From contig VHCW01000049.1 of the NCBI GenBank assembly GCA_016871575.1, forward strand, positions 1-35,431: DNA of 35,431 bases, given 5' to 3'. This DNA comes from Verrucomicrobiota bacterium (GTDB lineage: Bacteria; Verrucomicrobiota; Verrucomicrobiia; Palsa-1439). The notes below the pieces were generated by a model. The model saw only the letters and a list, made by a program, of their open reading frames with translations. It made no database searches and was not told the DNA's origin. Made by a program: the position numbers and the translations under genes. This document shows positions 13,087 to 29,383 of this stretch, one piece after another. Within the stretch, counting starts at the first letter, position 1. The number at the start of each line of letters is the position of its first letter.

Positions 13087-14499
13087 CTACTTGTTCCTCA
13101 CGGTCACGTGCGTGGCGCAGCCGTAGAACACCTCGGCGCATTCCTGCAACGTCTCCGACAACGTCGGATGCGGATGCGTGCACTCGGCCAGGTCGCGCGC
13201 CGTGGCGCCCATCTCGACGGCAAGCACGCCTTCGCCGATCAATTCACCGGCGCCGTGCCCGGTGATGCCGACGCCAAGCACGCGCTCGCTCTCGGGTTCG
13301 ATCACGAGCTTCGTCACGCCATCAGGCCGGTCAAACGTCATCGCGCGGCCGGAGGCCGTCCACGGGAACTTGACAACTTGGACGGTAACGCCTTTTTGTT
13401 TCGCGTCCATCTCGGTGATGCCGCACCAGGCAATTTCGGGGTCGGTGAACACGACGGCGGGAATGATCTGGTCTTCCGAGGTGCTCAGTTCTCCGCCGAT
13501 GGCGTCCACCGCCACGCGGCCTTCGCGCGACGCCTTGTGCGCGAGCAACGCGCCGCCCGCGACATCGCCGATGGCGTAGATCAGCGGGTCGGAGGTTTTC
13601 TGCTGCGCATCCACTTCGATGTAGCCTTTGTCGTCGCGTGTGACCTGTGTGTTTTCCAGCCCGAGGTTGACTGTGTTCGGCAACCGACCAACCGACACCA
13701 GCACGCGGTCGTAAAGCTCTTCGCGTTGTTGGCCGCCCGTTTCGGAGACGACCTTGATCTGGCGGCCGGCAGTGGCCATCGTCAATACCTTGGTGCTGAC
13801 GCGGACTTCCTTGAACGCCTTTTGCACATACTTCAACACCGGCCGCGCCAAGTCGGGGTCGGCGCCCGACAGCACGGCGGGCAACGCCTCGACAACCGTC
13901 ACGCGGCTGCCGAGCGTGGCGTACACCGTGCCGAGTTCCATGCCGATGTAGCCGCCGCCCACCACCAGCAACTCCGACGGAATGTCCGGAACCTCCAGCG
14001 CTTCCGTTGAGGTCATGATCCGCGGGTTGCCGAGGTCGAACGCTTTTGGTATCGCCGCCCGCGAGCCGGTTGCCACGATGACGTGGTCGTAGTTGAAAAA
14101 CTTCTGGCCGGTGCTCGTCTCAACCCGCAACAACTTCGAGTCCTCAAAATATCCGCGTCCGTGCAGCACCTCGACACCGCGCGTGCGCGCCAGCCCGGTG
14201 ATGCCCTGGCCGAGTTTTTCCACGATTGAGTTTTTCCAAGTGCGGAGCTGGTTCAGGTCAATCTTCGGTTCCCCGAACGTGATGCCGCGATGGATGGATT
14301 CGCGCGCTTCCGTCAGCAACTTGGCCGCGTGCAGGTAGGTCTTCGACGGGATGCAGCCCCAGTTCAGGCAGACGCCGCCGAGGCGTTCCTCTTGTTCGAC
14401 GAGCAAGACCTTGCGTCCTTTGTCCGCCGCGTAAAACGCCGCGGCATAACCGCCGGGACCGCCGCCGAGAACGACAATGTCAGTTTGGATGGGTTGCAT
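13087..14499 (-). CDS. lpd: Dihydrolipoyl dehydrogenase (E3)
   Basis: The protein is 470 aa, normal for E3. FAD site: IVVLGGGPGGYAAA. The redox disulfide is Cys44/Cys49 in GGVCLNWGCIPSK. An NAD-binding motif (LLVVGGGYIGMELGTVYA) sits mid-protein. The C-terminal active-site pair is in THPHPTLSET. It reoxidises the lipoyl arm of E2. The start is ATG 14499, followed directly by the FAD motif; a longer in-frame reading to 14550 runs through repeat DNA (HSNTPILHNPITP) and is rejected. The 5' leader consists entirely of 8-bp GGAGT-type repeats from the adjacent four-helix-bundle cassette, so expression of lpd within the operon may be affected. Confidence 0.95.
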   Translation of the reverse strand: MQPIQTDIVVLGGGPGGYAAAFYAADKGRKVLLVEQEERLGGVCLNWGCIPSKTYLHAAKLLTEARESIHRGITFGEPKIDLNQLRTWKNSIVEKLGQGITGLARTRGVEVLHGRGYFEDSKLLRVETSTGQKFFNYDHVIVATGSRAAIPKAFDLGNPRIMTSTEALEVPDIPSELLVVGGGYIGMELGTVYATLGSRVTVVEALPAVLSGADPDLARPVLKYVQKAFKEVRVSTKVLTMATAGRQIKVVSETGGQQREELYDRVLVSVGRLPNTVNLGLENTQVTRDDKGYIEVDAQQKTSDPLIYAIGDVAGGALLAHKASREGRVAVDAIGGELSTSEDQIIPAVVFTDPEIAWCGITEMDAKQKGVTVQVVKFPWTASGRAMTFDRPDGVTKLVIEPESERVLGVGITGHGAGELIGEGVLAVEMGATARDLAECTHPHPTLSETLQECAEVFYGCATHVTVRNK

Positions 14500-14500
14500 G

Positions 14501-14545
14501 GGAGTAATGGGGTTATGGAGTATTGGAGTGTTGGAGTGTTGGAAC
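14501..14545 (+). repeat. 8-bp tandem repeat array, left arm of the four-helix cassette
   Basis: Units read GGAGTAAT, GGGGTTAT, GGAGTATT, GGAGTGTT, GGAGTGTT, then GGAAC. A related array at 14974-15013 has the opposite orientation, so the two arms form an imperfect inverted repeat around the small gene between them. This arm provides the stop region of that gene and the 5' leader of lpd. Confidence 0.75.
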
Positions 14546-14983
14546 AACATCGGCTCCGTAAGCAGCGTTGCTTTCCTTGACCATCAAGGAGTCCACCCAA
14601 GAGCCATCAACTTTCTTATGTTCGAGGCTTTCCACAAGTTTCAAGAGACCATTCTCCAGTTTGAATGCCAGATTGTTCAATGTTTCAAAATCTTCCGTTG
14701 TTAGTTGTTCTGCTTTTTGACACGCGATCAATCCAGAGACGGATTCGCCCAGCGATCCCAAGGCCACATAAAGGAATTGGATGTATTCACGGATTGAACG
14801 GCGACAATATCCTTCCGCAATGTTCCGGTGAATCGAGTCGCTTGCAGCGATTGCCTGCGAACTGACTCTTCTTAACTCATACGGAAAACGCCGAAACACC
14901 GGGCAGGTCAGACGATAGTATTCCACTGCATCCTGCCAGACTCGTAATTGCTGATACCCTCGGTTCTTGTTCCGATATTCCAT
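14513..14983 (-). CDS. Four-helix bundle protein (23S rRNA intervening-sequence S23 type)
   Basis: The 156-aa protein has the family's characteristic start and core: YQQLRVWQDAVEYYRL, FPYELRRVSSQAIAASDSIHRNIAEGY, REYIQFLYVALGSLGE and a C-terminal helix pair. These proteins were first found encoded in intervening sequences of 23S rRNA genes and are also scattered through bacterial chromosomes; their function is unknown. Here it lies between aceF and lpd, where it does not belong functionally. Both ends run into inverted arrays of 8-bp GGAGT repeats, and its last residues (TLQHSNTP) are repeat-encoded. The ATG at 14983 overlaps the aceF stop region; a GTG at 14986 is equally possible. Confidence 0.85.
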   Translation of the reverse strand: MEYRNKNRGYQQLRVWQDAVEYYRLTCPVFRRFPYELRRVSSQAIAASDSIHRNIAEGYCRRSIREYIQFLYVALGSLGESVSGLIACQKAEQLTTEDFETLNNLAFKLENGLLKLVESLEHKKVDGSWVDSLMVKESNAAYGADVVPTLQHSNTP

Positions 14984-15013
14984 CACTCCATCACTCCATC
15001 ACTCCAATTCTCC
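14974..15013 (-). repeat. 8-bp tandem repeat array, right arm of the four-helix cassette
   Basis: On the minus strand the units read GGAGAATT, GGAGTGAT (three times), then GGAATATC. They mirror the array at 14501-14545 in inverted orientation. The array encodes the last residues of aceF (NWSDGVME), its stop codon and the start of the four-helix-bundle gene. Confidence 0.75.
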
Positions 15014-16206
15014 AGTTCCGCCACCAAATCCACCACGAACCGCGCCGCGCTGCCGCCATCAATCACGCGGTGATCATACGACAGCGCCAGTGGCAACATC
15101 AGCCGCGGCACAATCTGCCCGTCGCGCACGACCGGCTTGAGCGCGCCGCGCCCCATGCCGAGGATGGCGATCTCGGGCTTGTTTACAATCGGCGTGAACG
15201 CGCCGCCGCCGATGCCGCCTTGGTTCGAGATGGTGAATGAACCGCCTTTCATTTCGTCGGCGGTGAGCTTGCGATCGCGCGCTTTTGCGGCCAGCAGTTC
15301 CAGTTCCTTCGACAACTCCAGCAAACTCTTTTTGTCAACATCCCGGATGACCGGCACCATCAAGCCGTGCTCGGTGTCCACGGCGATGCCGATGTGAATG
15401 TATTCCTTCCACACGACCTCGCCCGCCGCATCATCGAGGCTCGCGTTGAAATGCAGATGTTTCCGCAACAACGCTGCCACCGCTTTCAGCGCAAACCCCG
15501 TCAGCGTCAGCCGCGCGCCCTTCGCCTCATAGGCCGGGACGTGTTTCTTGCGCAACTCATTCAGCGCGGTGATGTCGGCTTCATCGAATTGCGTCACGCG
15601 CGGCACGGCGTTCCACGATTCGCTCATCCGCCGCGCAATCGTCTGGCGCAACGCCGAGATCGGTTTCTGCACCACGGGTCCCCAGCGCGAGAAGTCAATG
15701 CGCTCGATTGCCGCCGGTTGGGCGGGCGCGGCTTGCGGAGCGGCAGCCAACTGTTGGAGTTGTTGAATGTAGGCGCGCAAATCCGCCATGCCGATCCGAC
15801 CGCCGGCTTCGGTGCCGCGCACGCGGCTCAGGTCAATGCCGAGGTCGCGTGCCACGCGCCGTAGCGTCGGCGACGCCGCCACCGGCAGACCGGGAATGTG
15901 CGGCGCCGTTGTAGTGGCCGCCGTCCCGGCGGCTGGGATAACCGGTTTTGCTGGAGCCGCCGGGACGGCGGCCCCTACACCGGCCAGCGTGAGGATCGGT
16001 TGGCCGACGGAAATCTTGTCGCCCACTTTGACGCGAATACTTTGCACGGTGCCGGCGGACGGCGTGGGAATGGTGCCGACGGCTTTTTCCGTTTCGAGTT
16101 CAAGGATGGGCTGGTCTTTCTGGAGGCTGTCGCCTTCCTTGACCAAAATGTTCACTACGACGCCGCTGTCGGCGCCTTCACCGAGATTGGGGAGTCGAAT
16201 GTCCAT
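14989..16206 (-). CDS. aceF: Pyruvate dehydrogenase E2, dihydrolipoyl acetyltransferase
   Basis: This is the E2 core of the pyruvate dehydrogenase complex. It has one lipoyl domain (residues 1-75, lipoylation site Lys41 in ELETEKAVG), a linker, a subunit-binding domain (about 108-145, SPTLRRVARDLGIDLSRVRG) and the catalytic domain ending with SYDHRVIDGGSAARF. The first linker (residues about 76-99) is almost wholly encoded by two REP repeats facing each other: AAVPAAP, a spacer, then AAGTAATTT. It thus resembles the Ala/Pro-rich swinging-arm linkers normal for E2. The C-terminus (NWSDGVME) comes from the 8-bp repeat array, and I take the TGA at about 14989-14991 as the stop. The start is ATG 16206. 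It lies downstream of aceE, with a RAYT gene between them. Confidence 0.95.
15910..15979. repeat. REPIN (two REP copies, inverted) inside aceF
   Basis: A perfect 25-bp REP copy (15910-15934) and an inverted copy with one mismatch (15955-15979) flank a 20-bp spacer. Each REP has a GTAG tail, a 7-bp stem (GCCGCCG / CGGCGGC) and the loop TCC. It is read as coding sequence in the E2 linker. Confidence 0.88.
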
Positions 16207-16265: not shown

Positions 16266-16305
16266 AGCCGCCGGGACGGCGGCCACTACAACGGCGGCCA
16301 CTACA
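16266..16305 (-). repeat. REP copy plus 15-bp partial copy at the RAYT 3' end
   Basis: A perfect minus-orientation REP (16266-16290) is followed by a 15-bp repeat of its GTAG-side end (16291-16305). The TAG within the GTAG of the partial copy serves as the stop codon of the RAYT gene. Confidence 0.85.
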
Positions 16306-16786
16306 CACGGTCAATGGCGACAATTTCGCCTTGGTATGGCCAATCGTCCGCTTGTTTTACCAGTCCGTCGCGGACTGGATTTTCGCGGACGTATTGCCAT
16401 TTCTGATCGTAGCTCTCCGAGTTTCGCAGCAAATGGTCAAAGAACCCCGGCTGCCAGATCGTTGTAGTGGCCGCCGTCCCGGCGGCTGTTTGGAGTGCGT
16501 TACGAATCACCCTCTTCAATCCGCGCACCCACAGACCGACATCAAACTCACGTCCGCCACACACGAACGCATGCACGTGATCCGGCATGATGACGTATCG
16601 GCCCACTGCCGCGCGGTTCTCCATTGCACCACGTTCCGCATATTGGCGAAACGCTTCATGCGCTGTGTCACAAGCCAGAAGCGGATGGCGTTCGTATGTG
16701 CAGAAGGTGACGAAGTACACCGGTGAATCGTAGGCCTGAAACACTTCTCGTAGTCGAGGCGGCTTGCCCTTGAAAGGAGGATTCAT
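16301..16786 (-). CDS. REP-associated tyrosine transposase (RAYT, IS200-like HUH family)
   Basis: The 161-aa protein has the RAYT blocks YFVTFCTYERHPLL, YVIMPDHVHAFV (HUH pair His70/His72), a LKRVIRNAL helix, WQPGFFDHLLRNSESY and KWQYVRENPVRDGLV (likely catalytic Tyr132). RAYTs are single-copy domesticated relatives of IS200/IS605 transposases that are thought to spread REP hairpins. Copies of a GTAG-tailed REP lie just upstream (16806-16870), just downstream (16266-16305) and inside the gene (16463-16487, residues 101-108, GTAATTT). The internal copy falls in the loop before WQPGFF, so the protein may still fold. The start is ATG 16786, since upstream codons to 16843 are REP-derived. TATACT lies 6 nt before the ATG. 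It is inserted between aceE and aceF. Confidence 0.9.
   Translation of the reverse strand: MNPPFKGKPPRLREVFQAYDSPVYFVTFCTYERHPLLACDTAHEAFRQYAERGAMENRAAVGRYVIMPDHVHAFVCGGREFDVGLWVRGLKRVIRNALQTAAGTAATTTIWQPGFFDHLLRNSESYDQKWQYVRENPVRDGLVKQADDWPYQGEIVAIDRV
16463..16487 (+). repeat. REP copy inside the RAYT coding sequence
   Basis: A perfect 25-bp REP lies on the plus strand, so the minus-strand RAYT gene reads its complement as A-A-G-T-A-A-T-T in frame. Confidence 0.88.
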
Positions 16787-16792
16787 GTCGGG

Positions 16793-16798
16793 AGTATA
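16793..16798 (-). promoter_or_regulatory. Putative -10 of the RAYT gene, 6 nt before the start codon
   Basis: TATACT on the minus strand ends 6 nt before the RAYT ATG, suggesting its own leaderless promoter within the aceE-aceF gap. No clear -35 is visible because REP sequence lies upstream. Confidence 0.35.
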
Positions 16799-16805
16799 GC
16801 ATAGT

Positions 16806-16870
16806 TGTAGTGGCCGCCGTTCCGGCGGCCATCGCGGGCCCACGGAGCCGCCGGGACGGCGGCCACTACA
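16806..16870. repeat. REPIN between aceE and the RAYT gene
   Basis: A plus-orientation REP with two changes (16806-16830) and a perfect inverted REP (16846-16870) are separated by a 15-bp spacer. It ends 3 nt from the aceE stop codon, so a long hairpin would form at the 3' end of the aceE message and could act in termination or RNA stability. Confidence 0.88.
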
Positions 16871-16873
16871 ACG

Positions 16874-19339
16874 TTACACCACTTGCGGAAACGGTTTCTC
16901 CGGGTCAACTCCCAAATCCTGGATCGCTTGCGCGGCGAGTTTCTTGTCGAGCGCGCCGAGCGTCGCGATGACAACACACTCGGCATCCACCTCGAAAAAC
17001 CGCCGCAGCACCGGGCGCGTATCACTGCGGCCAAACCCGTCGGTGCCGAGCGTTGTGAGACCGCCGGGAATCCACGGGGCGATTTGGTCGGGGACGGTCT
17101 TGATGTTGTCGCTGACGGCGATGAACGGGCCGGTTTCTTTCTCCAACACGGTTTCCAGATACGAGCGGCGCGGCGGCTCGGTTGGGTGCAGCATGTTCCA
17201 ACGACGGCAGGCGAGCGCATCGGTGCGGAGTTGTTTGTAGTTCGTGACGCTCCAGACGTTGACGCCGACGCCGTAGCGTTCGGCGAGGATTTCCTGCGCG
17301 CGCAACGCCTCGCGCAGGATTGGGCCGCTGCCGAGGATGTTGGCCCTGGCGTCGCCGGAACATTTCCGGAATTTGTAGAGTCCCTTGAGGATTCCTTCCT
17401 CGACGCCGTCGGGCATCGCCGGCATGGGGTAGTTTTCGTTGTGAAGGGCGATGTAATAGAAGATATCCTCGCCGTTCTCGAACATCCGCCGCATTCCTTC
17501 GCGGATGATGACGGCGATCTCGTAGCCGAATGCCGGTTCGTAGGCGAGCAGCGTGGGAATGGCGCTGGCCAGCAGCAGGCTGTGGCCGTCCTGGTGTTGG
17601 AGTCCTTCGCCATTGAGCGTGGTGCGGCCGGCGGTCGCGCCGCAGAGGAAGCCGCGCGCGCGAATATCGCCGGCGAGCCAGAACAGGTCGCCGACGCGCT
17701 GAAGGCCGAACATCGAGTAGTAGATATAGAACGGAATCATCGGCGCGCCGTGGCTGGCGTAGGCGGTGGCGGCGGCGATCCACGAACTCATCGCGCCGGC
17801 TTCGGTGATGCCTTCTTCGAGAATCTGGCCGTCCTTCATTTCGCGGTAGTACAACAGCGAAGCGCGGTCCACGGGTTCGTAGAGCTGGCCTTTGCAGGCG
17901 TAGATGCCGTAGTCGCGGAACAGCGCGTCCATGCCGAAGGTGCGCGCTTCGTCGGGAATGATCGGCACGATTCGTTTGCCAATCTGCGTGTCGCGGAGCA
18001 ACTGGCTGAGCAGTCGCACGAAGGCCATCGTGGTGGACATTTCGAGGTTGTTGCTTCCCTTGAACAACTCGGCGGACATTTCCGGCGCCGATAGTTTCGG
18101 AGCATTCACCTTGCGCGCCGGCAGGAAACCGCCGAGCGCGCGCCGGTGTTCGATCAGGTACTTCGTTTCGGCGCTGTCCTCCGGGGGCCGGTAGAACGGC
18201 GTCTCGGCAATGATCTCGTCGCTGACCGGCACGCCGAACCGGGCGCGGAACTCGCGGAGTTCCTTTTCGTTCAATTTCTTCTGCTGATGGGTGATGTTGC
18301 GGCCTTCGCCGGCTTCGCCGAGGCCGTAGCCCTTGACGGTCTTGGCGAGGATGACCGTCGGCTGGCCTTTGTGTGCGACGGCGGCTTGATAAGCGGCGTA
18401 CACTTTTTGCGGGTCGTGACCGCCGCGGCCGAGCCGTCGGACTTGGTCGTCGGTGAGGTGGTTGACCATGTCGTACAGCTCCGGGTATTTGCCGAAGAAA
18501 TGACGGCGCGTGTAGCTGCCTGGTTCGACGACGTATTTCTGGTAATCGCCGTCCACGGATTCTTCCATGCGCCTGCGAAGCAGGCCGTGCGTGTCGGCGG
18601 CGAGCAACGGGTCCCATTCCTGTCCCCAGATGACCTTGATGACGTTCCAGCCGGCGCCGCGGAAGGCGGCTTCGAGTTCCTGGATGATTTTGCCGTTGCC
18701 GCGCACGGGGCCGTCGAGCCGCTGGAGGTTGCAGTTGACGACCCAGATCAGGTTGTCGAGTTCCTCGCGCGACGCGAGCGTCGTCGCGCCGAGCGTTTCC
18801 GGCTCGTCCACCTCGCCGTCGCCGACAAACGCCCAGACTTTCGGCTCGTCGCCGGTGAGAAAGCCGCGCGCCTTGAGGTAGCGGTTGAAACGCGCCTGAT
18901 AAATCGAAAGAATCGGCCCCAGCCCCATCGAGACAGTCGGGAATTGCCAGAACTCCGGCATCAAGTACGGGTGCGGATATGAGGAGAGACCGCCGCCCTC
19001 GGCGAGTTCGCGCCGGAAATTGGCAAGATGCTGTTCGGTGAGGCGTCCTTCGAGGAACGCGCGCGCGTAGATGCCCGGCGTGGCGTGCCCCTGGATGAAA
19101 ACCATGTCGTTGCCGCGGAAGAAATGGTTGAACCCGACTTCGTACAGCGTGGCCGCGGAAGCGTAGGTGGAAATGTGGCCGCCGATGCCGTGGTGGTCGC
19201 GGTTGGCACTGACGACCATCGCGATGGCGTTCCAGCGGATGTAGCTCTTGATGCGCCGCTCGATGTCGCGGTCGCCGGGGTACGGCGGCTCGCGGTCGGC
19301 GGGGATCGTGTTGACGTAGGGAGTGTTCAGTGAGTTCAT
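16874..19339 (-). CDS. aceE: Pyruvate dehydrogenase E1, homodimeric type
   Basis: The 821-aa protein decarboxylates pyruvate with thiamine diphosphate and acetylates the E2 lipoyl arm. It is the single-chain (alpha2) E1 type: YIRWNAIAMVVSANRD, GIGGHISTYASAATLYEVGFNHFF, QGHATPGIYARAFLEGRL, and the ThDP/Mg motif GDGEVDEPE ... NCNLQRLDGPV at about residues 170-205. The C-terminal part has RGFLCGATAGRTTLNGEGLQHQDGHS and GFGRSDTRPVLRRFFEVD, typical of E1. It is somewhat shorter than the roughly 887-aa enterobacterial protein. The start is ATG 19339 (MNSLNTPYVN); an upstream in-frame reading to 19378 lacks similarity. It is the first gene of the aceE-aceF-lpd operon and divergent from a lipoate ligase gene. 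Confidence 0.95.
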   Translation of the reverse strand: MNSLNTPYVNTIPADREPPYPGDRDIERRIKSYIRWNAIAMVVSANRDHHGIGGHISTYASAATLYEVGFNHFFRGNDMVFIQGHATPGIYARAFLEGRLTEQHLANFRRELAEGGGLSSYPHPYLMPEFWQFPTVSMGLGPILSIYQARFNRYLKARGFLTGDEPKVWAFVGDGEVDEPETLGATTLASREELDNLIWVVNCNLQRLDGPVRGNGKIIQELEAAFRGAGWNVIKVIWGQEWDPLLAADTHGLLRRRMEESVDGDYQKYVVEPGSYTRRHFFGKYPELYDMVNHLTDDQVRRLGRGGHDPQKVYAAYQAAVAHKGQPTVILAKTVKGYGLGEAGEGRNITHQQKKLNEKELREFRARFGVPVSDEIIAETPFYRPPEDSAETKYLIEHRRALGGFLPARKVNAPKLSAPEMSAELFKGSNNLEMSTTMAFVRLLSQLLRDTQIGKRIVPIIPDEARTFGMDALFRDYGIYACKGQLYEPVDRASLLYYREMKDGQILEEGITEAGAMSSWIAAATAYASHGAPMIPFYIYYSMFGLQRVGDLFWLAGDIRARGFLCGATAGRTTLNGEGLQHQDGHSLLLASAIPTLLAYEPAFGYEIAVIIREGMRRMFENGEDIFYYIALHNENYPMPAMPDGVEEGILKGLYKFRKCSGDARANILGSGPILREALRAQEILAERYGVGVNVWSVTNYKQLRTDALACRRWNMLHPTEPPRRSYLETVLEKETGPFIAVSDNIKTVPDQIAPWIPGGLTTLGTDGFGRSDTRPVLRRFFEVDAECVVIATLGALDKKLAAQAIQDLGVDPEKPFPQVV

Positions 19340-19388
19340 GCCGGTGCCCGCAACGTTATCCGAATCTGGAAAAAACACAATTGCCGGT

Positions 19389-21540: not shown

Positions 21541-22296
21541 TTACGATTGTTTCGGCACTTCACGCCCCAGCTTGGCGAGCACGGTTTTCATGTCCTGCCA
21601 GACTTCCTTCTTTGCCGGCGGATTCCGCAAAAGGTAGGCGGGATGGAACGTCGGCATGATCGGGATGTCGTGGTACGCGTACCAGTTGCCGCGCATCTTC
21701 GTGATGCCGATCTGGATGTCCAGCAACGCCCGCAACGCCGTCGCTCCCAACGCCACGATCACCTTCGGGCGGATCATCTCAATTTGCCTCTGCAAATACG
21801 GCAGGCAATTCGCCGTCTCATCCGGCAACGGCGTCCGGTTCTCCGGCGGCCGGCATTTCAAGACGTTGGCAATATAGACTTCCTCGCGTTTCATCCCCAT
21901 CGCCTCGATGATCTTCGTCAACAACTGTCCCGCGCGACCGACGAACGGCTCGCCTTGCGCGTCCTCGTCCGCCCCCGGCGCCTCGCCGATGAACATCAAC
22001 TCGGCCTGCGGATTGCCGACGCCAAACACGACGTTGCGCCGCGTTCGCGCCAACTCGGCGCATTTCCGGCACTTCTTTGTCTCCGCTTCCAGCGCGGCCC
22101 AATCGGGTGTAGCCGCCGCCGTCCCGGCGACTGGTGTTCTGCGAGTCGGTGCCGCCGGGACGGCGGCCACGACAACCGGCTTGCGCCCCAGCTCCTCCAG
22201 CGTCGCCTGCGAAACCTCGACGTGCGTCACACCGGAGCGTTTCATTTCCTCCAGCGCCTTGATGGTGTCGTCAACGATGTGCTTCAGCTTTTGCAT
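21541..22296 (-). CDS. Uracil-DNA glycosylase, family 4 (iron-sulfur type)
   Basis: The 251-aa protein removes uracil from DNA. The catalytic domain (from about residue 65) has a cluster-binding pair (KKCRKCAEL), the active-site motif [23 protein letters not shown], two more Cys around [21 protein letters not shown] and the C-terminal [13 protein letters not shown]. An N-terminal helix ([17 protein letters not shown]) precedes it. The linker at residues 41-63 is encoded by a diverged [15 protein letters not shown], a spacer, then AGTAAAT. The start is ATG 22296, overlapping the end of the pseudouridine synthase gene by 13 bp; a longer reading to 22341 lacks support. Confidence 0.92.
22108..22174. 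repeat. Diverged REPIN inside the uracil-DNA glycosylase gene
   Basis: A plus REP with three mismatches (22108-22132) and an inverted REP with two mismatches (22150-22174) flank a 17-bp spacer. The central hairpins are intact, while the TG after the GTAG tail and the tail of the second copy have changed. It is in frame in the linker between the N-terminal helix and the catalytic domain. Confidence 0.82.
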
Positions 22297-23180
22297 AAAT
22301 TCGCCATGTCCTCCGGCACCGGCGCCTCGAACTCCAACCAATCGCCGGTCCGCGGATGTGTGAACCCAAGTTTGTAGGCGTGCAGCATCGGACGGTCAAC
22401 GGCAATCTCCGCCGCGCGCGCCCGGCCGTACACCGCATCTCCAACCAGCGGATGCCCGATGTGCGCCATGTGAACCCGAATCTGATGCGTTCGCCCGGTG
22501 TGCGGCGTCACCTCCACCAATGCGAACGCCGTCAGTTGCTTCAACACACGGTACTCGCTCAACGCCGCGCGCCCGCGCGCCACGCGCGCCGACATTTTCT
22601 GGCGGTCGCGTGCGCTCCGCCCGATATCCGTTTCGATCCGTCCGATTGGCCGGACAAATGTTCCCCAACAAAGCGCGCGGTAAACCTTGTGGATCTTTCG
22701 CGCCTTGAACTGCTCGACCAAACTGCAATGCGCCGTGTCATTCTTCGCGACCACGATGCAGCCGCTCGTCCCCTTGTCGAGCCGATGCACGATCCCCGGC
22801 CGCTCCACGCCGCCGATGCCCGACAATCCGCCCCGGCAATGATGGAGCAACGCATTGACCAGCGTGTGCTCGTAGTTGCCCGCCGCCGGATGAACGACCA
22901 TCCCGGCGGCCTTGTTGACGACGATGAGGTCTTCATCCTCGTACAGCACGTTGAGCGGGATCGCTTCCGGCTGGTTGTCGAGCGGGCGGGGCGGGGGAAC
23001 CTCGACGCTGACAACGTCGCCCGCGCGCACCTTGTAGCTGGCCTTGGACGGCTGGCCGTTGACAGTCGCCTGTCCCTCCTCGATCAACTTCTGGAGAAAC
23101 GCGCGCGACCGCTCCGGCATCTGCGTTTGCAGAAACCGGTCAAGGCGCTGGCCGCGTTCGTTGTCGGAGACGGTGAACAT
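22284..23180 (-). CDS. RluD-family 23S rRNA pseudouridine synthase
   Basis: The protein is 298 aa from the start chosen. An S4 RNA-binding domain ([21 protein letters not shown]) leads into the synthase domain with [24 protein letters not shown], the catalytic-Asp motif [18 protein letters not shown] and the closing [28 protein letters not shown]. It isomerises uridines in large-subunit rRNA; the exact site cannot be told from sequence. The start is ATG 23180 ([16 protein letters not shown]), which gives the family's usual N-terminus; ATGs at 23192 and 23225 would add a short hydrophobic piece. It overlaps the uracil-DNA glycosylase gene and is divergent from mqnA. Confidence 0.92.
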
Positions 23181-28235: not shown

Positions 28236-28258
28236 TTCATTGTTGACGGTGACAGGTC

Positions 28259-29383
28259 ATGAGGATCTGTCACGTCATTACGCGCTTGATTGTCGGCGGC
28301 GCGCAGGAGAACACCGTTGCCACGTGCACCGGGCTGCGGAAACGCGGCCACGAAGTTGACCTCGTGATCGGGCCGCAGACCGGCCCCGAAGGTTCGTTGT
28401 TGCCGCAGGCCGGTGATGTGATGGTCATTGACGATTTGCGGCGCGAGCCGAACCCCTGGCGCGATGTGCGCGCGTGTGGGGCGTTGGTCCGGTTGTTTCG
28501 GGAACGGCGTTACGACGTTGTCCACACCCACAGCGGCAAGGCCGGCATTCTCGGCCGTCTTGCGGCGCGGCTGGCCGGTGTGCCGGTGGTGGTGCACACC
28601 ATTCACGGGCCGTCGTTTTATCCGTATCAGAATCCACTGGGCAACTGGTTGTTCCGCTGGCTGGAACAACTCGCGGCAGCGTGGACAACGCAGTTTGTGT
28701 CGGTGGCCGACGCGATGACGGAGCAATACCAGGCCGCCGGTGTCGCCGGTCAATTCGTGACGATCCGCAGCGGTTTCAACCTTGCACCGTACGCTGGTGT
28801 AGTGGCCGCCGTCCCGGCGGCTCCTGTCGTCGGGAAGATTGCGCGCTTGTTCCGTCTGAAAGGACACGAGTTTCTCTTCGAGGCAGCGCCACGCATCGTC
28901 GAGGCCGTGCCGAATGTGAAGTTCCTGCTGGTCGGCGACGGGATTTACCGCGAACGATACGAGCGGTGGGCGGAACGATTGGGGTTGCGCGATCATTTTG
29001 AGTTTGCGGGATTGGTTTCACCATCCGACATACCGCGATACGTGGCGCAGATGGACGTGCTGGTGCATCTTTCGTTGCGCGAGGGATTGCCGCGAACGTT
29101 GCCGCAGGCGTTGGCGTGCGGCAAGCCGGTCGTGGCGTTCGACGTGGATGGCGCGCGCGAAGTCTGCCGGGACGGCAAGACTGGTTTTTTGATCCGGCCC
29201 GGCGACACGACGGCGCTGGCCGATGCGGTCATCCGGCTGTTGCAGGACAAGGCATTGGCGGACAGAATGGGCGCGCGCGGACGCGAATTGGTTCGCGAGC
29301 AGTTTGCCGAAGAAAAGATGGTGGAGCAGATCGAGGCGTTGTACCGGCGATTGATCGCCAACGGAGACAAAGAGAGAAAATGA
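28259..29383 (+). CDS. Glycosyltransferase family 4 protein
   Basis: The 374-aa GT-B enzyme begins MRICHVITRLIVGGAQENT, the classic GT4 start. The N-domain has VVHTHSGKAGILGRLAARLAGV and HTIHGPSFYPY; the C-domain has KIARLFRLKGHEFLFEAAP, FLLVGDG and the donor-binding motif HLSLREGLPRTLPQALACGKPVVAF with the expected Glu. It moves a sugar from a nucleotide donor, probably in envelope or exopolysaccharide synthesis (a WecA-type gene lies downstream). Residues 180-188 (VVAAVPAAP) at the inter-domain linker are encoded by a perfect REP copy and probably replace or extend the hinge. The stop overlaps the sulfatase start (ATGA). Confidence 0.9.
   Translation: MRICHVITRLIVGGAQENTVATCTGLRKRGHEVDLVIGPQTGPEGSLLPQAGDVMVIDDLRREPNPWRDVRACGALVRLFRERRYDVVHTHSGKAGILGRLAARLAGVPVVVHTIHGPSFYPYQNPLGNWLFRWLEQLAAAWTTQFVSVADAMTEQYQAAGVAGQFVTIRSGFNLAPYAGVVAAVPAAPVVGKIARLFRLKGHEFLFEAAPRIVEAVPNVKFLLVGDGIYRERYERWAERLGLRDHFEFAGLVSPSDIPRYVAQMDVLVHLSLREGLPRTLPQALACGKPVVAFDVDGAREVCRDGKTGFLIRPGDTTALADAVIRLLQDKALADRMGARGRELVREQFAEEKMVEQIEALYRRLIANGDKERK
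28798..28822 (+). repeat. Single REP copy inside the glycosyltransferase gene
   Basis: This is a perfect 25-bp copy, identical to those around the RAYT gene 12 kb away. It is read in frame as V-V-A-A-V-P-A-A at the junction of the two Rossmann domains. Confidence 0.88.

Follow-up and report, generated by a model that had tools for sequence, protein, structure and literature searches.

How does a transposase gene come to carry, in its own reading frame, a copy of the repeat that surrounds it, and does that copy matter to the protein? The question is raised by a RAYT (REP-associated tyrosine transposase) gene in a 35,431-nt stretch of DNA from a Verrucomicrobiota bacterium (the window), which is one contig (G000:C49) of a 5.19 Mb draft genome.

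The RAYT locus and its REP copies

On the minus strand the gene order is aceE, RAYT, aceF and an lpd-like gene, with one small open reading frame (ORF) between the last two. The features relevant to the analysis are:

13087-14550, minus strand: lpd-like gene
14513-14986: small ORF (157 aa) between the lpd-like gene and aceF
14983-16206, minus strand: aceF, dihydrolipoamide acetyltransferase (E2), downstream neighbour of RAYT
15907-15984: REPIN in frame inside aceF, encoding residues 75-100; its REP units are 15907-15935 and 15955-15984 (inverted)
16266-16291, minus strand: complete REP in the 3' flank of RAYT, adjoining the partial REP
16292-16306: partial REP, GTGTAGTGGCCGCCG
16301-16303, minus strand: TAG stop codon of RAYT, inside the partial REP
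16301-16786, minus strand: RAYT gene, 161 aa, ATG start, TAG stop
16460-16488, plus strand: internal perfect REP, read on the coding (minus) strand as A101-T109, AAGTAATTT
16803-16872: REPIN of two inverted REPs (16803-16831 and 16846-16872), ending 16 nt upstream of the RAYT ATG
16874-19378, minus strand: aceE, pyruvate dehydrogenase E1, upstream neighbour of RAYT
22105-22179: in-frame REPIN close to the N terminus of a uracil-DNA-glycosylase (UDG) gene (about 21544-22395, minus strand; L036)
28795-28823, plus strand: in-frame REP that separates the two halves of a glycosyltransferase (gene at about 28253-29380, plus strand; L020)

The small ORF in this pdh cluster presumably encodes a four-helix-bundle protein of the 23S rRNA intervening-sequence type.

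The RAYT protein scores 100.9 bits against the NCBIfam model NF047646 (REP_Tyr_transpos, cut-off 80) and a modest 31 bits (E=2.7e-7) against Y1_Tnp (PF01797). It has the full motif set of RAYT/TnpAREP proteins, each element being conserved in alignments: the HUH motif (DHVH, residues 69-72), WQ (W111-Q112), and a single catalytic tyrosine in Y---NP (Y132 in YVRENP). The AF2 model is a confident fold (pLDDT 90.8), for which E. coli TnpAREP (4er8) is the best PDB match. As is characteristic of RAYT/TnpAREP genes, the gene is flanked by GT[AG]G-tagged REPs and REPINs that are dispersed in the genome. With GTAG-type REPs of its own on either side, this RAYT gene forms a REPtron.

The REP unit of the window is GTTGTAGTGGCCGCCGTCCCGGCGGCT. 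It has nine matches in the window with at most three mismatches versus none in 100 shuffled sequences, which rules out a chance origin. The copy inside the RAYT gene contains the 23-nt REP core without mismatches (16464-16486), and all 29 nt of it are identical to the copy at 15907-15935. The residues that it encodes stop two residues short of W111 and lie in the loop between the REP-binding helix (residues 83-102, preceding the WQ strand) and WQ. An earlier note on this DNA had described a perfect REP in the codons just before WQ, a stop codon taken from a partial REP, a REPIN beside the upstream end of the gene, and retention of the HUH residues and the tyrosine. Each of these observations was confirmed; the encoded residues are 101-109, and the partial REP lies one nucleotide from the interval given there (16291-16305).

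Recurrence of own-REP inserts in the RAYT family

Comparison with the nearest relatives identifies the internal REP as an insertion. The closest homologues, one from the same genus (L041) and three others (L042, L070, L071), each have their own, different REP, that of L041 being GTAGCTGCGCTTCTGTGAAGCGC. Their loops read PNRWQ in L041 and ATGRFWQ, SVVGFWQ and VRRGLWQ in the other three, and are shorter and devoid of REP-encoded residues. The earlier note had named the same residues in close orthologues with unrelated REPs as evidence that would speak against an insertion, and these orthologues lack them. The REP-encoded loop peptide of the window was not found in any other surveyed RAYT.

The survey covered about 187 RAYTs of Verrucomicrobiota type, namely L107 and 186 distinct sequences whose motifs could be read; the sources were 57 relatives, 236 genomes from the class, and 80 named GTDB contigs. 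In each gene we looked for core stretches that recur in its own flanks. In this non-random sample, for which 80 loci were chosen by similarity, 12 of the ~187 genes have an in-frame copy of their own local REP or REPIN in the loop between helix and WQ (window, L084, L058/L159, L074, L138, L149, L146, L100, L107, L163, L153 and the first gene of L072). Four more, forming one clade (L161, L057, L150, L169), carry their own REP after the HUH strand. L046 has no insert and forms a natural pair with L084/L159, whose insert is a REPIN. No REP-type match was found elsewhere in the core among the ~187 RAYTs. REPs located N-terminally in some relatives (e.g. L006, L047 and the second gene of L072) precede the likely start codon and were set aside, and single matches of 13-14 nt with no REP palindrome (e.g. 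L143, L095, L123) were treated as chance.

The inserts represent at least eight REP families, the peptides encoded by the loop REPs of different RAYTs share no sequence, and the insertion points lie between 1 and about 20 residues ahead of W. This variation is more in keeping with a tolerant loop than with a fixed target site, and a site-specific target was rejected as the main cause. In trees built without the loop, the own-REP trait requires 8-9 changes by parsimony, at least six of them forced by well-supported branches; the RAYT tree is short with many open forks, which leaves the precise count of gains uncertain and allows for losses among the changes. Two of the loop-REP genes, L107 and L100, have an own REP in the same loop that reads AETAAATT. 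The REPs of the window gene and L107 end at the same place (ACAACG-codon-TGG) and in the same frame, a coincidence that may reflect either shared ancestry or a preferred point.

The internal REPs belong to dispersed families in the genomes that were checked. The window REP has 49 copies with at most two mismatches in its own genome (reversed control, 0), and the families of other internal REPs have 50 copies in G005, 57 in G028, 99 in G020 and 7 in G010. The internal copies in G005 match the variant of the RAYT locus and not the commoner genomic variant, which points to a local origin. The RAYT-locus REPs of this genome (G005:C66, L074) have a common loop variant, TTGTTAA, seldom seen in the rest of it; the pattern hints at local copying or homogenisation.

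Stop codons taken from REPs recur as well. TAG ends 54 of 185 RAYTs, with G preceding it in 37 of those and a hairpin directly following in 19. At least 19 of the 185 end on the GTAG of a REP, so that REPs commonly supply the stop codon in this family. According to Di Nocera et al. (2013, PMC3733652), ORFs next to GTAG REPs often take their TAG stop from the REP terminus.

Origin and possible effect of the internal REP

The same REP lies within other genes of the genome. Within the surroundings of 30 of the 49 copies, it was found in frame in about 13 other genes with recognisable domains, mostly at interdomain linkers. These genes encode MutL, DHPS, an a/b hydrolase, DnaX, a glycosyltransferase, a radical-SAM protein, ETF, two ABC proteins, UDG, E2, a DEAH helicase and a GH95-like protein; the loci outside the window are L010, L013, L014, L015, L021, L023, L026, L028, L029 and L038. 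Positions of the encoded residues include:

MutL: aa 379-386, between 248-360 and 418-560
Glycosyltransferase: aa 183-190, between the two lobes
Radical SAM/SPASM protein: aa 501-508
ABC exporter: aa 447-454
DEAH helicase: aa 297-304
DnaX: after domain III

In aceF the REPIN-encoded residues form the linker between the lipoyl (2-74) and E3-binding (109-143) domains. This peptide is Ala/Pro/Thr-rich and resembles natural E2 linkers. With the RAYT gene included, 13 of 14 genes use only two of the five open frames, those that encode small residues, AAGTAATTT or VVVAAVPAA (binomial 6e-5). GTAG REPs wholly inside a coding gene and in frame, as defined by Di Nocera et al. (2013), are thus present in RAYT, aceF, UDG and the glycosyltransferase of the window and in others in the genome. 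The data show that the internal REP of the RAYT gene is one instance of a genome-wide filter, and that a single REP family also serves as in-frame linker sequence in numerous genes, its presumed own transposase included.

These observations can probably be explained by local insertion of the cognate REP, in frame, into a tolerant RAYT loop, with the stop codon supplied by the 3'-flanking REP and an effect close to neutral. REP mobility near its REPtron would have placed a further local copy in the loop. If the loop tolerates extra sequence, RAYTs with a REP there would persist, their open frame and catalytic core intact. A REP inserted at any other point of the core would destroy the gene and disappear, which would account for the lack of such copies. 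The same filter may act throughout the genome, where the REP reads as a linker-like peptide in two of five open frames and would be kept in interdomain linkers. The share of surveyed RAYTs with an own REP (16/~187) looks far above the intragenic share in the window's own genome (roughly 14 found among thousands of genes), and this excess indicates that something beyond general tolerance concentrates REPs in RAYTs; we assume that it is the local REP density. We infer that the RAYT itself may have made the insertion, that the protein is probably active and that the insert is near-neutral, although neutrality is not assured because the loop adjoins the REP-binding surface.

That proximity is what gives a functional reading its appeal, namely that the internal REP limits its own system, either because the encoded loop next to WQ alters REP recognition or because the REP acts as a cis element, being bound or cut by the RAYT in its own gene or folding as a hairpin in its mRNA. 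In E. coli TnpAREP, the REP is contacted by the REP-binding helix (alpha3 in PMC8266576, alphaC in PMC6006769), by the stretch following it, and by W94-Q95, a pair that also touches the GTAG guide. The loop in question follows this helix and precedes the WQ pair, cognate REPs recur in it, and the REP DNA folds as a hairpin (z = -4.0 for the internal copy; -37.3 kcal/mol and z = -8.9 for the upstream REPIN). In the view of Quentin et al. (2018), short inserts at alphaC:beta4 in subclasses 2.2 and 2.6 may aid REP contact. The location makes tuning of RAYT activity by the insert possible. On the other side, most homologues, the same-genus one included, have no REP in the loop, the encoded peptides lack a common sequence, the insertion points vary, and the same REP sits at linkers of unrelated genes. 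A REP-encoded bulge in a relative is also predicted to be disordered: the 25-residue REPIN-encoded insert of L159 has a pLDDT of 51-55 in a model whose core, like that of the window protein, exceeds 90, and it is predicted to be an unstructured bulge. We therefore consider a function of the internal REP unlikely. The broader idea that several RAYT lineages take their own REP beside the GTAG-binding residues and thereby feed back on the enzyme appears quite unlikely; if true, it would make a self-tuning mobile repeat system, acting through reshaped REP recognition or through an internal cis target that limits expression.

The earlier note had suggested that an insertion into its own transposase could tune or disable activity. 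The insertion and the REP-supplied stop stand, whereas disabling finds no support, and a decaying pseudogene is very improbable. Such decay would be in line with the modest Y1_Tnp score and with L107, whose internal REPIN goes together with loss of the Y..NP motif. Against it, the window gene has an open frame, an NF047646 score above the equivalog cut-off, intact HUH, WQ and tyrosine, a confident fold, and a W-to-Y distance of 21, as in nearly all surveyed RAYTs; and among the 11 other RAYTs with comparable inserts in the same loop L107 alone has lost the Y motif, which is kept in 11 of the 12 loop-REP genes. The chance is very slight, too, that the internal REP descends from an ancestral loop REPIN common to L107 and L100 and was matched to the current REP by gene conversion. 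The common end and frame of the window and L107 REPs would agree with such descent, as would the placement of window, L100 and L107 together in a loosely resolved region of the tree; but no supported branch joins the window gene with L107, the left REP of the L107 REPIN is absent from the window, and L041, L042, L070 and L071, as close or closer, have no loop REP. Most likely, both REP events in the RAYT gene are harmless insertions at tolerant sites rather than a switch.

Relation to known systems

The presence of an own repeat in its own transposase is neither unique to the window gene nor new in kind. In-frame intragenic GTAG REPs have been found most of all in another member of the Verrucomicrobiota, Opitutus terrae, often in DNA repair genes (PMC3733652), and the pattern in the window's genome resembles it. 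Both phenomena of that study, REP-supplied TAG stops and in-frame intragenic REPs, are seen in the window; REPs in the loop of RAYTs are not singled out in its main text. The Rickettsia palindromic elements (RPE) provide an analogy only: they are likewise palindromic repeats lying in frame in protein genes, but a different repeat in a different phylum. The intragenic repeats of R. conorii were classed as CGTC elements, without association with a transposase gene (PMC3733652), whereas in the window the repeat and its presumed transposase are linked.

The best structural match in the PDB, and the only sequence match, is E. coli TnpAREP (4ER8), which shares HUH, WQ and Y..NP with the window protein. 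It differs in having a C-terminal tail that contacts GTAG; the window protein is shorter at this end and has REP-encoded residues in its loop ahead of WQ.

The closest precedent is found in subclass 2.4 (RAYT group 4). Quentin et al. (2018, PMC6006769) describe REPs lying in frame within tnpAREP genes as unique to this subclass, plus some of 2.8. There they form a variable REP-derived insert at beta3:alphaC, and the subclass motifs are NH[IFV]H and YIxNNP (Table 1). The window RAYT likewise has an in-frame REP, but its motifs are DHVH and YVRENP and its insert lies at alphaC:beta4, right before WQ; membership of subclass 2.4, as described there, was rejected on these mismatches. The REPs of L161, L057, L150 and L169 occupy the beta3:alphaC position published for subclass 2.4, in proteins with different motifs. 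The window RAYT thus appears to be a variant of a published phenomenon, some of the surveyed sequences possibly being among the data of Quentin et al., and what seems to be new is i) the loop position and ii) the evidence for repeated origin. A feature reported as unique to one RAYT subclass is now found in further RAYTs and in another loop, beside the GTAG-reading residues, and its repeated separate origins provide natural pairs with and without the insert for probing the role of this loop in REP recognition.
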